This document shows positions 1 to 3,850 of a stretch of 64,000 nucleotides of DNA, piece by piece. The first letter of the stretch is position 1; the number at the start of each line of letters is the position of its first letter. Location: positions 434,001 to 498,000 of the forward strand of contig NZ_VHIN01000022.1 of NCBI RefSeq assembly GCF_009805585.1, read 5' to 3'. Source of the DNA: Glutamicibacter sp. JC586 (lineage in GTDB: Bacteria > Actinomycetota > Actinomycetes > Actinomycetales > Micrococcaceae). Under the pieces are notes generated by a model. It searched no databases and was not told the origin of the DNA. It saw only the letters and a list, made by a program, of their open reading frames with translations. The position numbers and the translations under genes are program-made.

Positions 1-287
1 CGCTTTGCCAGCAGGCCGATCAACGCGGAGAGGACCGTCGCGACGACGGCGATGGAAATGAACAGCGCCAGCTTGTCATTGGTGCCGAAGGTCGCGATGG
101 CGAAGTCCTTGAGCCACGGGGGAGTCAAATCGATGATGGCCGAGCCCAAGGCGAAAAACGGTGACGAGGCGCTATTAAAAAATGCCGAAGCGAACTGGGC
201 CACGGCGAACATGGCTGCTGCCGAACAGAATCCAGCCACCGCGTGGAATACGAGAACTCTGTCGTTGCGTTTCGTTGAAATGCCCAC
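1..287 (-). CDS. Membrane molybdopterin-dependent oxidoreductase (sulfite oxidase-like), 5' part only
   Basis: The gene runs off the left edge, so only about the first 95 residues are visible. Translation starts at GTG 285-287 behind the ribosome binding site GAGGTGAG. The visible part has a hydrophobic segment around residues 11-31, then the stretch IDLTPPWLKDFAI and a second hydrophobic segment. As I recall, this N-terminal membrane region precedes the sulfite-oxidase/YedY-like molybdopterin domain in actinobacterial proteins; the catalytic domain lies outside the window. It follows rskA on the same strand but has its own candidate SigK promoter at 357-384, so it is probably part of the SigK regulon. 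The family call rests on the N-terminus and the neighbourhood only. Confidence 0.65.
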   Translation of the reverse strand, partial: MGISTKRNDRVLVFHAVAGFCSAAAMFAVAQFASAFFNSASSPFFALGSAIIDLTPPWLKDFAIATFGTNDKLALFISIAVVATVLSALIGLLAK

Positions 288-316
288 TGCCACTCACCTC
301 ATGCGTTGCGATCCAT

Positions 317-341
317 GTTCCCCTGCCGATCGCAGGGGAAC
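317..341. repeat. 10-bp inverted repeat between rskA and the oxidoreductase gene
   Basis: Arms GTTCCCCTGC (317-326) and GCAGGGGAAC (332-341) are perfect complements around a 5-base loop. It lies downstream of rskA but also inside the predicted 5' leader of the oxidoreductase, between its candidate promoter and start codon. There is no T-run on the minus strand after it, so it is either a weak rskA terminator or a leader hairpin. Confidence 0.5.
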
Positions 342-356
342 AACCACTCACCATGT

Positions 357-384
357 ATTCGGAACATCCTTCGATGCGGATTGG
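357..384 (-). promoter_or_regulatory. Candidate SigK promoter of the oxidoreductase gene
   Basis: On the minus strand CCAATCC (384-378) and CCGAAT (362-357) are separated by 15 bases. The same two elements with the same spacing occur before the fasciclin gene (2724-2751). They resemble the CCATCC / CCGAAT elements I recall for mycobacterial SigK. The predicted transcript starts about 60 bases before the GTG at 287. Assignment to SigK is inferred from the shared motif and the adjoining sigK-rskA pair. Confidence 0.6.
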
Positions 385-410
385 AATCGGCTATGAGAGT
401 TTTTGCGGCT

Positions 411-1235
411 TCACAGCGACTGGACCATGATGGGATCTGTTGTCGGGGCAGGGGATCCAGCAGCTGGCTCCACAGTGATCCCGAAATGCGTGATGTCCTT
501 CATCGGATCTGAAACCATGATCATGCCATCGGCATCGGGGCCGGTGAGCATGCCCGCAGAAACTGCACCATCAGCCGAAATCAGCCATAGTTCATAGCCC
601 TTGTCGCTGGACAAAGCCGGCATGCCAGAGGTGGAAACAGCCATTAAGCCCTCATTGGCCGAATAGGAAAGAGTGATACGGGCTCCGTCCTCCAAGGTCT
701 GCGTTTTTGACTTCGCATCAGGGGCGCTCAGAATCCGCGTGAGCTCTTCTTCATGCGAGGCCATGGCGGCCATCTTGTTCTCCAACTCGCGCTGTTCGGA
801 AGTTTGGTTGATCGCCAATCCTCCCAAGGCGACTGCTGCCAGTAGCAGCACACCGGCGGCCAGGGCAAAGAAGCGCTGCGTACCGCGTCCTGTTCCTGTC
901 TGCTGGACCGGAGGTTCTGAAGCGGAACCAGGTTCCCGCGGGGCCTCGGTGGCTGGAGCGGCTGCGGGGGAGTTGTCCAGGGTGGGCGCCTGGTCCGCAA
1001 CGGGAGGCAGCTGCTCGGTGGTGCGGATGGCGGACATGATGTTGGCCTTCAACCGTGGCGGAGGCGCGACCGGTTGTGCCGCCAAGCCAAGCAGCCCGGC
1101 AGTTTCCTGAAGTGCGTCGAGTTCTTGGCGAGCCTGGGCGGAATTCGGAGACTGGTTGAGCAGCTGCTCGCGCTCTTTGTCTCCCAGGGCATCCGCGGCG
1201 AAACTGTCGGTTCGCTCGTTCTCATGCTTGTCCAT
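411..1235 (-). CDS. rskA: Anti-sigma-K factor RskA
   Basis: A 274-residue membrane anti-sigma factor. The cytoplasmic N-terminal part (about residues 1-80, including ANIMSAIR) should bind SigK. A Pro/Ala-rich linker follows, then one membrane helix at about residues 121-143, and an extracytoplasmic RskA C-terminal domain with the typical GYELWLI and HFGITVEPAGG-like stretches (here PAAGS). Family members hold the ECF sigma factor inactive until regulated proteolysis in the membrane releases it. The start overlaps the sigK stop as TAATG (1237-1233), so the two are translationally coupled and made in proportion. Length and domain order are normal for the family. Confidence 0.9.
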   Translation of the reverse strand: MDKHENERTDSFAADALGDKEREQLLNQSPNSAQARQELDALQETAGLLGLAAQPVAPPPRLKANIMSAIRTTEQLPPVADQAPTLDNSPAAAPATEAPREPGSASEPPVQQTGTGRGTQRFFALAAGVLLLAAVALGGLAINQTSEQRELENKMAAMASHEEELTRILSAPDAKSKTQTLEDGARITLSYSANEGLMAVSTSGMPALSSDKGYELWLISADGAVSAGMLTGPDADGMIMVSDPMKDITHFGITVEPAAGSPAPTTDPIMVQSL

Positions 1236-1816
1236 TACGCCACTCCCATCAGGTCTCGAAGTTTGCTCATTCCATCGCGTATTCGCGTTTTGGCGGTTCC
1301 CACCGGTATTTTCAGCATCTCGGCGACTTCCAGGTGGGTGTATCCGCCAAAGTAGGCCAGGTGTATGGCCTCTCGCTGTGGCGCGCTGAGCCGTTGCAGT
1401 GCCTGGGAGACGCGCACGGTTTCATCGTGCAAGATGGCGTTCTCTTCCACATCATCGTAGCTGTCTTGGAAGTCCTTGATTCCAACGCGCAAATCCCGTG
1501 CTTGGCTTGCTTGGCTCGAACGCACGCGGTCCACGGCCCGGCGGTGGGCAATGGTCAGCAGCCAGGAGGCTGCGGTGCCGCGGGCAGGATCAAAGCGCCG
1601 GGCCTGCTGCCACGCTTCAACGAAAACTTCTTGGGTAACTTCTTCACTCTGCCCCCTGTCGCGAAGCACCCGCAGCACGAGTCCGAAGACTCGGGAAGCC
1701 ATGGCATCGTAGAGCGATTCGAAGGCAGCTTCTTGTCCCAGCGCGACCTGTTGCATCAGGGCGTCCGGCGTTTGAACGGAATCGTCTTCCATGGAGTCGA
1801 GTCTATTTGAACTCAT
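1235..1816 (-). CDS. sigK: ECF RNA polymerase sigma factor SigK
   Basis: An extracytoplasmic-function sigma factor of 193 residues. Region 2 carries the DRGQSEEVTQEVFVEAW core-binding/-10 recognition motif and region 4 the HTH with YTHLEVAEMLKIPVGTAKTR. I place the start at ATG 1816 (MSSNRLDSMEDD) because homology should begin near there; the frame stays open upstream to 1945 and an in-frame ATG at 1837 is possible. No strong ribosome binding site decides between them. It is coupled to rskA through a TAATG overlap and lies downstream of the fasciclin lipoprotein gene. The arrangement fasciclin - sigK - rskA parallels the mycobacterial Mpt70/Mpt83-SigK system. Confidence 0.9.
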   Translation of the reverse strand: MSSNRLDSMEDDSVQTPDALMQQVALGQEAAFESLYDAMASRVFGLVLRVLRDRGQSEEVTQEVFVEAWQQARRFDPARGTAASWLLTIAHRRAVDRVRSSQASQARDLRVGIKDFQDSYDDVEENAILHDETVRVSQALQRLSAPQREAIHLAYFGGYTHLEVAEMLKIPVGTAKTRIRDGMSKLRDLMGVA

Positions 1817-1917
1817 GAATCCTAGAGTCTCACGCATCTGTGTCTGTTTCGCTGTCTGCTGTTCCGTGGCGCTTTGCGAAAGTTGCCGATGAGGGAGCAA
1901 CTGCCCGTTGCACCAGC

Positions 1918-1956
1918 GAAGGTGATGCCTGGATCTGGACTCCATGCATCACCTTC
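1918..1956. terminator. Hairpin after the fasciclin gene (possible terminator)
   Basis: Perfect 11-bp arms GAAGGTGATGC (1918-1928) and GCATCACCTTC (1946-1956) enclose a 17-base loop, about 30 bases beyond the fasciclin stop codon. There is no U-run on the minus strand, so termination would be imperfect; the element could equally be an operator or processing site before sigK. Confidence 0.45.
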
Positions 1957-1985
1957 AGGCCACCGGCCTTGCGATTGCGCCGTTG

Positions 1986-2648
1986 CTACTTTTTGGCTGG
2001 TGGCATCAGGACGGTGTCCACCAGGTACACGGTCGCGTTGGCCGTCTGCACGCCACCGCAGATGACCGAAGCGCCATTGACTTCGAGGTCGTCGCCGCTG
2101 CCGGTGACTTCCACATCCTCGCCCTGGACGGTTGCATGGGTTCCGGGCAGATCATCCGGCGCGATCTGGCCGGGGATCACATGGTAGGTCAGGACGCTGG
2201 TCAAGGTGTCCGCGTCCTTGGCCACGGCGGCCAGGTCATCCTTGGGGATGGCGGCGAACGCATCGTCGACTGGGGCGAAGACGGTGAACTCGCCGCCGTT
2301 GAGGGTGTCGACGAGGTCAACGTCTGCGTTCAGCTTTCCGGAAACTGCGGAAGTCAGCGTGGTCAACAGCGGATTGTTCGAAGCTGCGACGGCCACTGGA
2401 TCCTTGGCCATTCCGGCTACCGAACCGTCACCGGTTGGCACTGCTTCTGCATAGGCCGCGCAACCGCTACCCACCAGATTGCTTGCCGGATCCATTGCCG
2501 ATTCGCTGGCCATGGACGAGCTGCTCTCCGTGGCGGAGGCCGTGGGCGATTCCATGGTTTCCGAACCGGTCGAGCAGGCGCTCAGTCCCATGGCGGCGAC
2601 TGCGATGAGCCCGAATGCTCCAGCGACTTTGCTGTATGTGCGCTTCAT
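1986..2648 (-). CDS. Secreted fasciclin-domain lipoprotein (Mpt70/Mpt83-like)
   Basis: A 220-residue exported lipoprotein. The signal peptide ends in the lipobox LSAC with Cys25, followed by a Ser/Thr/Glu-rich linker (about 26-60) and one fasciclin (FAS1) domain with the characteristic FTVFAPVDDAFAAIP and LTYHVIPG motifs and a C-terminal VYLVDTVLMPP strand. FAS1 proteins are adhesion or matrix proteins; the mycobacterial relatives are SigK-dependent secreted antigens. The ribosome binding site GGAGAA lies directly before ATG 2648. A candidate SigK promoter lies about 75 bases upstream (2724-2751), identical in form to that of the oxidoreductase gene on the other side of sigK-rskA. Confidence 0.88.
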   Translation of the reverse strand: MKRTYSKVAGAFGLIAVAAMGLSACSTGSETMESPTASATESSSSMASESAMDPASNLVGSGCAAYAEAVPTGDGSVAGMAKDPVAVAASNNPLLTTLTSAVSGKLNADVDLVDTLNGGEFTVFAPVDDAFAAIPKDDLAAVAKDADTLTSVLTYHVIPGQIAPDDLPGTHATVQGEDVEVTGSGDDLEVNGASVICGGVQTANATVYLVDTVLMPPAKK

Positions 2649-2723
2649 GATTTTCTCCTTGCTTCGCCGCGACTGATGTCGTCGGTGTTTTTCCTGTCTG
2701 TGCGGACCAGGTTGTCAATGAGC

Positions 2724-2751
2724 ATTCGGGGCTGGAGGCTTTGCGGATTGG
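2724..2751 (-). promoter_or_regulatory. Candidate SigK promoter of the fasciclin lipoprotein gene
   Basis: Minus-strand elements CCAATCC (2751-2745) and CCGAAT (2729-2724) are separated by 15 bases, exactly as at 357-384. The -35 side is in both cases followed by GCA. Two such matches around one sigma/anti-sigma pair make a shared ECF promoter likely. Confidence 0.6.
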
Positions 2752-2926
2752 ATTCTTTTGAAACTTTTTTGCTTCCCGCGGGCAGGGAGTAGTCCGGCCA
2801 CATTCGCTGACTGACGGACCTGCTCCCGGAACGCAGCCGGATCATGGAAATGGGCAGCAAGTGGGATCGGCCACGCTGGGAACCATCGGCAGGCTAATTT
2901 TCTGCTCAACCCATATACTGGAAAGC

Positions 2927-3850
2927 GTGAGTAAAGCCGGGCAGAACACGCAAGAGCAGGCCTCGGGCCTGGTACTAGTCGACAAAAATCAGGGAATGAC
3001 TTCCCATGATGTGGTGGGTCGCATCCGACGACTCGCGGGCACCCGCAAGGTGGGCCATGCTGGCACCCTAGACCCAATGGCCACCGGAGTTCTGGTCGTC
3101 GGTGTTAATAAGGCAACCCGCTTGCTCACCTACATCGTTGGTCACGATAAGACTTACACCGCCACCATCCGTCTGGGACAGAACACCGTCACCGATGATG
3201 CCGAAGGCGAGATCATTTCTCAGCGCATCGCTGCTGCAGTTAGTGATGAAGACATCGAACGTGAAGTCGCCAAGCTGCGCGGAGACATTGAACAGGTGCC
3301 CAGTCAGGTTTCGGCTATCAAGGTTGATGGCAAGCGCTCCTACGCCCGCGTGCGGGCTGGTGAGCAAGTGGAACTCAAATCCCGTCCGGTCACCATTTCA
3401 CGCTTTGAGATTCACGAAATCCGACGCGAAAACGGCGGCAAGATTCTGGACGTAGACGTTACCGTTGCTTGTAGCTCCGGCACCTACATTCGCGCCCTGG
3501 CCCGCGATCTAGGCGAAGCGTTAGATGTTGGCGGACACCTGACCGCCTTGCGCCGCACCGAAGTCGGGCCGTACAAGATTGAGCTAACTCGCACCCTTGA
3601 GCAGCTGGCTCAACAGTTCGAGATGCTGCCTATCGAAAAGGCTGCTGCCGCATTGTTCCCTAACCGCACCGTCAGCGTTGATGAAGCCATTGAGCTTTCC
3701 TTCGGACGCACCATCCCCGCCTCGCACCTGAGCATGGATATTGAACAGGGGCAGACCGTCGCCGCATTTGCGCCGAATGGTGTGCTGGTGGCGTTGCTAG
3801 AAGACAAGGGCGATAAAGCTCGCACCGCACTAGTCTTCACTGCAAAGTAA
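2927..3850 (+). CDS. truB: tRNA pseudouridine(55) synthase TruB
   Basis: Isomerises U55 in the T-loop of tRNAs to pseudouridine. With the start at GTG 2927 (ribosome binding site GGAAAG) the protein has 307 residues. The catalytic motif GHAGTLDPMATGVL contains Asp49, and the N-terminal GLVLVDKNQGMTSHDVV and the CSSGTYIRALARDLG motif are typical. A C-terminal PUA-like domain covers about residues 240-305. The frame is open upstream to 2861, but homology starts near 2927. A TATACT box at 2914-2919 could serve as a -10 element, giving a very short leader. First gene of a run of housekeeping genes with ribF and rpsO. Confidence 0.95.
   Translation: MSKAGQNTQEQASGLVLVDKNQGMTSHDVVGRIRRLAGTRKVGHAGTLDPMATGVLVVGVNKATRLLTYIVGHDKTYTATIRLGQNTVTDDAEGEIISQRIAAAVSDEDIEREVAKLRGDIEQVPSQVSAIKVDGKRSYARVRAGEQVELKSRPVTISRFEIHEIRRENGGKILDVDVTVACSSGTYIRALARDLGEALDVGGHLTALRRTEVGPYKIELTRTLEQLAQQFEMLPIEKAAAALFPNRTVSVDEAIELSFGRTIPASHLSMDIEQGQTVAAFAPNGVLVALLEDKGDKARTALVFTAK

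Follow-up and report, generated by a model that had tools for sequence, protein, structure and literature searches.

The window analysed here, a stretch of 64,000 nucleotides from Glutamicibacter sp. JC586 (contig NZ_VHIN01000022.1, positions 434,001 to 498,000), carries near one end genes for a fasciclin (FAS1) lipoprotein, a SigK-type extracytoplasmic function (ECF) sigma factor, its membrane anti-sigma factor RskA and a molybdopterin oxidoreductase (here termed OXR), along with two copies of the bipartite element CCAATCC-N15-CCGAAT. On sequence comparison it is likely that these two elements are SigK-read promoters, one of a fas1-sigK-rskA operon and the other of the separate OXR gene. The regulon proposed in an earlier note made from the sequence alone, in which SigK controls a surface FAS1 protein and a membrane molybdo-oxidoreductase, is supported by gene-linked conservation of the motif across many genomes. 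The features concerned are as follows.

1..293, minus strand: 5′ part of the OXR gene (521 aa in full, Oxidored_molyb domain); the gene, at G000:C19:432731-434293, continues outside the window.
316..342, minus strand: stable hairpin in the OXR 5′ leader, between promoter and start codon (z -3.75).
357..384, minus strand: predicted SigK-type promoter of the OXR gene (match to CCAATCC-N15-CCGAAT and a ten-genome footprint).
411..1235, minus strand: rskA, encoding a membrane anti-sigma factor of 274 aa; its start overlaps the stop codon of sigK (Pfam PF10099).
1235..1816, minus strand: sigK, encoding a cysteine-free ECF sigma factor of 193 aa (NCBIfam PRK09646 SigK, 4nqw).
1986..2648, minus strand: MPT70/MPT83-type FAS1 lipoprotein of 220 aa, whose tether contains methionine (Pfam PF02469, 1nyo).
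2724..2751, minus strand: predicted SigK-type promoter of FAS1 (match to CCAATCC-N15-CCGAAT, box bases invariant in ten genus members).

Both elements were found at 357-384 and 2724-2751 on the minus strand with the 15-base gap that had been claimed, the -10 box of the OXR promoter ending about 64 bases from the GTG start. Their description as near-identical holds for the boxes but not for the 15-base spacers, which differ, and the GCA after the first box, although common to the two elements, is not conserved before FAS1 in the genus, where its place is taken by GTG, GTT, GTC, GCC, GCT or GCG in nine other members. When 13–17 bases were allowed between the boxes, shuffles of the window gave a mean of 0.02 matches, with two matches in 0 of 100 shuffles. 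At the same gap range the 3.5 Mb genome held four matches, every one with 15 bases, and a reversed-pattern control had none in the whole genome. All four exact copies precede FAS1 or OXR genes, two of them belonging to a second cassette described below. A wider regulon in the same genome was considered and rejected in an inspection covering sites up to one mismatch: a relaxed pattern gave seven matches, four of which were the FAS1/OXR sites, and the remaining three (C19:448735 being counted among them) sit within open frames of at least 150 codons, sense or antisense, as do four further one-mismatch sites (L036, L037, L038 and L041). The last one-mismatch site is a FAS1 promoter on contig C18.

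The search of the genome and its relatives which the earlier note had put forward as a check linked the motif to the same two gene families, with 42 of the 63 exact copies in relatives lying at FAS1 or OXR genes. These 63 copies were spread over 39 of 147 related genomes, none of which contained the reversed pattern. FAS1 lay directly downstream of 29 copies, at 74–90 bases, and OXR of 13, at 64–178 bases; no exact copy preceded sigK. The 42 copies came from 24 genomes, all of which had a sigK match. With up to two mismatches allowed, the motif was present upstream of 65/89 FAS1, 36/66 OXR, 4/56 sigK and 0/51 rskA genes, as against 15/1780, 10/1320, 6/1120 and 4/1020, respectively, in two-base-block shuffles of these upstream regions (70 OXR genes were found, those with fewer than 150 bases upstream being dropped; 89 of 93 FAS1 were examined, four single-FAS1 stretches being left out and six motif-only places added). 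When ten genus members were compared, none of the 13 box bases before FAS1 varied, with majority fractions of 0.72 in the spacer and 0.75 in the other columns, and before OXR the majority fraction was 0.96 in the -35 box, 0.95 in the -10 box, 0.69 in the spacer and 0.88 in the other columns. A chance origin of the motif was rejected on the shuffles, the gene-linked counts in relatives and this footprint. The search was extended to 80 named SigK loci, including Micrococcaceae, Microbacteriaceae, Nocardioides, Amycolatopsis and Streptosporangium, in which the pattern CC[AC]ATCC-N15-CCGAA occurred 58 times and its reverse 0 times; 51 copies preceded FAS1 (31), sigK (14) or OXR (6). CCAATCC-N15-CCGAAT appears to resemble the published mycobacterial SigK element.

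The gene order on the minus strand is FAS1 (2648-1986), sigK (1816-1235), rskA (1235-411) and the OXR start (293 outwards). The sigma factor passes the NCBIfam PRK09646 SigK model (257.6 bits, cut-off 226) and matches Mycobacterium tuberculosis SigK (4nqw) at E 8.7e-49, and the RskA_C domain (PF10099) is recognized in RskA at 90 bits (cut-off 29.4). As previously claimed, the motif is absent before sigK itself: none was found at up to two mismatches in the 350 bases upstream, and a separate promoter of this type for the window's sigK was rejected. The same pattern was seen more widely, with 0/50 sigK carrying a motif of their own in loci where a FAS1 of the same orientation lies up to 1.5 kb upstream, against 4/6 where FAS1 is placed otherwise; in the named loci, under a strict pattern, the values were 0/17 with FAS1 upstream and 13/39 without FAS1 (14 at a slightly wider limit). 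The absence of the motif before sigK behind FAS1 suggests that fas1-sigK-rskA is probably one autoregulated operon, so that the 2724..2751 element would, by inference, be the promoter of all three genes; for the window, the simplest reading is one operon under SigK. No intrinsic terminator was predicted on the minus strand in positions 1-3000, including between the cassette genes. More generally, where sigK follows FAS1 its transcription seems to depend on the promoter of FAS1, and some, though not all, other sigK genes appear to have their own site. In a further 24 named loci with FAS1 elsewhere in the stretch (e.g. in Microbacterium), sigK is not preceded by FAS1 and lacks the strict motif.

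Both cysteines of the C-terminal domain of 4nqw are replaced in the window SigK, by A and L, and 12 of the 19 sigK products counted in the genus, the window's own included, are cysteine-free. PMC7509140 gives the frequency of the two cysteines (133 and 183) as 94% among ECF18 and 56% among ECF19 members; they are usual but not defining. It also reports an abnormal RskA for 23% of cysteine-less cases. The window RskA is full length, which places this SigK with the commoner kind among cysteine-less SigK, that with a normal RskA. In three genus mates (L101, L102 and L104), the same FAS1-OXR setting holds a far more diverged sigK (34–37% identity, three cysteines) together with rskA.

A second FAS1-RskA-OXR cassette was found on contig C4 of the same genome, with both promoters intact. 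The FAS1 and rskA genes of this cassette are separated by what is left of a sigK (L005:6493-7221, 243 codons) with 9, 10 and 11 stops in the three forward frames, which aligns to the intact sigK of a full cassette in genome G003 and is a pseudogene; the sigK copy in the corresponding cassette of genome G004 is also broken. Differences between the C4 and G004 copies fall mostly at third codon positions in OXR (41/53) and FAS1 (48/60) and more evenly over the codon positions in rskA (14, 14 and 20), whose frame is still open. Judged by this distribution, the C4 targets are under constraint and the C4 anti-sigma gene is drifting. The OXR promoters of C4 and G004 are identical in every base. The C4 promoters have thus outlived the local sigma factor gene, as expected if a SigK acts in trans, and C4 FAS1 and OXR are probably driven in this way. 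G004 also has a lone extra FAS1 with an intact SigK-type promoter (L095), about 23 kb from its second cassette.

Taken together, a SigK-type sigma factor would read both predicted promoters, the first driving fas1-sigK-rskA, and thereby raising SigK itself and its anti-sigma factor, and the second driving the separate OXR gene. Membrane RskA would retain SigK until an envelope signal frees it, and the freed SigK would bring about joint production of a FAS1 lipoprotein at the cell surface and a molybdenum enzyme that is exported and anchored in the membrane; the two may act together in envelope redox defence.

OXR has four transmembrane-like segments, a twin-arginine pair, a fifth transmembrane-like segment and a sulfite-oxidase-fold domain; both the twin-arginine pair and the domain cysteine are invariant in 55/55 homologues, and the twin-arginine motif suggests that the enzyme faces outward. 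OXR passed none of the named family models tried, scoring 63.3 bits against MsrP (cut-off 207), 109.4 of 600 against SorA, 73.7 of 570 against SorT and 84.2 of 420 against SoxC. A piece of OXR on its own had no match among solved structures. A structure model of the Glutamicibacter nicotianae homologue showed a fold match to sulfite oxidases and to 1xdq/1xdy (Escherichia coli YedY/MsrP), with moderate confidence in the model (mean predicted local distance difference test score 71, 17 sequences) and the membrane part barely covered by the fold search. SorA structures were the best sequence and Foldseek matches of OXR. OXR shares the fold and the invariant cysteine with the sulfite dehydrogenases SorA, SorT and SoxC, but differs from them in falling far below all three NCBIfam cut-offs and in its N-terminal transmembrane-like segments. 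Sulfite oxidases have an arginine after the cysteine; in OXR, where the cysteine stands in CVSNPVGG, this arginine was not seen.

Among solved structures, FAS1 is closest to MPT70 (1nyo, E 3.8e-57), and the alignment matches up both cysteines. A methionine-rich stretch lies between the lipid anchor of FAS1 and the FAS1 domain (window 2481-2573, minus strand). In 48 FAS1-like proteins, methionine accounted for 8.4% of the 35 residues that follow the lipobox cysteine. The figure for 49 other lipoprotein candidates was 0.9%, and these include two FAS1 proteins missed by the filter. At least one tether methionine was present in 88/88 parsed FAS1 linkers of same-order relatives (88 of 89 could be parsed), with up to nine in about 50 residues, and one Mycetocola linker in the named loci (L273) had none. 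In the wider set of FAS1 linkers, 129 proteins were found, 92 parsed and 87 distinct ones used, those without a core or lipobox and duplicates being dropped.

One reading of the cassette, compatible with SigK control of both promoters, is that it forms a methionine-oxidation defence resembling proteobacterial MrpX-MsrP, in which the FAS1 tether is sacrificial and OXR reduces it; we regard this as unlikely. It is favored by the tether methionine content, by the weak match of OXR to the MsrP profile (63 bits) and by the fact that an ECF sigma factor, a methionine-rich peptide and an MsrP-type enzyme form a documented set, as described in PMC8315932. However, seven of eight Nocardioidaceae FAS1 beside OXR have no tether methionine, two genomes (G096 and G130) have a methionine-rich FAS1 tether and no Oxidored_molyb match, and OXR scores far less than the 207 bits that the MsrP model demands. 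We also looked for an association of tether methionine with the presence of OXR and rejected it: the methionine content did not differ between FAS1 that have OXR close by (0.092) and those that do not (0.105), and the Nocardioidaceae contradict it. A more specific form, slightly less probable still, would see the same-order SigK regulon as a surface shield against methionine oxidation, in which oxidants damage the MPT83-type tether, membrane-tethered OXR reduces it with membrane electrons, and MPT70/MPT83 descend from such shields. If so, the SigK signal would be envelope oxidation and OXR a sulfite-oxidase-fold subfamily outside the named ones.

A third locus, at the end of contig C18 (L092:7259-8810), consists of fas1 and an intact second sigK, 56% identical to that of the window. 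In the C18 fas1 promoter the motif differs at a single base, reading TCGAAT in place of CCGAAT. The contig stops just after sigK, and no rskA matching the C18 sigK was found in the assembly, a search with RskA_C yielding, apart from the C19 and C4 genes, no more than one weak match, on C11 (31 bits). With two intact sigK genes and a shared motif, the promoters might be real and read mainly by the second SigK or another ECF sigma factor, the window SigK being one of several readers. This is rather improbable, as nine of the ten genus members compared have only the window-type sigK at E up to 1e-30, and the same motif is present there.

The motif (at up to two mismatches) was present before 28/39 OXR downstream of sigK/rskA, 6/9 OXR in cassettes of other order, 2/18 with FAS1 but no sigK/rskA match and 4/40 away from any cassette (the first 40 of 64), against 0/800 in shuffles of the last group. 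At the genome level, OXR was present in 78/80 related genomes with FAS1 compared with 19/67 without, and in a phylum sample in 57/62 FAS1 genomes compared with 91/284 others, kinship being ignored in both cases; FAS1 and OXR lie within 3.5 kb of each other in at least 22 genomes of that sample. That OXR simply lies next to the sigK cassette, carries the motif by chance and is not under SigK control would agree with the 11/39 OXR downstream of sigK/rskA that lack the motif and with the altered OXR -10 box in part of the genus, but we consider it improbable given the contrast between cassette and lone OXR, the rarity of the motif in shuffles (10/1320 for cassette OXR) and the survival of the OXR promoter in the sigK-less C4 cassette, identical to that of G004. 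That the motif is an operator of a DNA-binding regulator is very improbable: operators too can be conserved bipartite motifs upstream of genes, but here the half-sites are unlike, the orientation is fixed, the gap is exactly 15 bases, the distance to the genes is 64–178 bases, and a sigK match is present in all 24 genomes with the motif at FAS1 or OXR.

Several observations weigh against SigK control of both promoters and should be set beside the evidence for it. Among the 63 exact copies in relatives, 21 lie elsewhere than at FAS1 or OXR; about 15 copies would be expected in all at equal base use, so that part of the 21 is background, and the TAA and CTA words in the reversed-pattern control probably make it understate this background. 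Two genomes (G052 and G140) have the motif and no sigK match. The OXR promoter is weaker than that of FAS1, its last -10 base being A in seven of the ten genus members and its -35 box having one change in three of them, and the motif is missing before the 11/39 cassette OXR mentioned above. The p-values for FAS1-OXR co-occurrence are inflated because related genomes are not independent. As the genome has a second intact sigK, either sigma factor may read a given promoter. Lastly, the sigK motif was found in 0/24 named loci with FAS1 elsewhere in the stretch; the rule that every sigK not preceded by FAS1 carries a motif itself was accordingly only partly true (4/6, 13/39 and 0/24), and autoregulation may not hold everywhere.

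The mpt83-sigK-rskA cassette with its binding site has already been published, as stated in PMC7509140, and the SigK regulon and this cassette are treated for M. tuberculosis and Yersinia in PMC7509140, PMC9861118 and PMC3078919. The window resembles that cassette in combining a FAS1 lipoprotein with sigK and rskA, in the site before FAS1 and in the membrane RskA. It differs from the M. tuberculosis cassette in that OXR is a probable further target with its own predicted promoter, and from known SigK in lacking the two cysteines even though RskA is full length. dipZ is a SigK target in M. tuberculosis and is not in this cassette; the genome was not searched for dipZ. PMC8315932 describes bcrXQP of Brucella and yedYZ-mrpX of Azospira as ECF-controlled sets of a methionine-rich peptide and MsrPQ. 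The likeness to these lies in an ECF sigma factor with its anti-sigma factor, an exported protein that among same-order relatives is rich in methionine, and an enzyme of the Oxidored_molyb superfamily; the differences are another ECF group, another anti-sigma family and the FAS1 domain. Unlike MsrPQ, OXR has transmembrane-like segments of its own, and its profile score is nearer SorA than MsrP.

In the literature searched, which did not cover the 2008 SigK regulon paper or the 2021 ECF re-classification, none of the titles and abstracts listed named a molybdopterin oxidoreductase as a SigK target. FAS1-sigK-rskA being known, the new element within that literature is OXR as a partner, which was found in no paper searched. 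The function of MPT70 and MPT83 is not known to be settled. The activating signal of SigK is unknown according to PMC7509140. A partner enzyme that accompanies FAS1 across the sampled Actinomycetota offers a handle on both, and further handles are a soil genus open to testing and a natural cassette without sigK but with promoters and targets. The SigK switch is known from tuberculosis bacteria, and a signal shared by a surface protein and a molybdenum enzyme would hint at its purpose.

In addition to the promoters, the OXR leader hairpin is largely kept in the ten genus members, across which no compensatory pair changes (covariation) were seen in the leader, and a hairpin is also present in the paralogous C4 cassette (L005:5566-5612, z -3.28). 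A known RNA element was sought in positions 250-2900 and rejected, since no Rfam family matched at an E value of 1 or lower. Among other genes with the motif in relatives, those of DUF4383 membrane proteins follow it in five loci (L130, L131, L132, L143 and L149); a Pfam scan of two of these gave DUF4383 for both, and all five genes sit in or beside FAS1-sigK cassettes. The motif also precedes genes of secreted proteins with an HIH motif in L186, L187 and L188. No Pfam family was found over the first 150 residues of the L186 protein, and the L188 protein (G098) matches CHRD at 30.2 bits. Proteins with a similar HIH motif follow the element in two genomes of another genus, and a third genome of that genus has the motif with no clear gene behind it.

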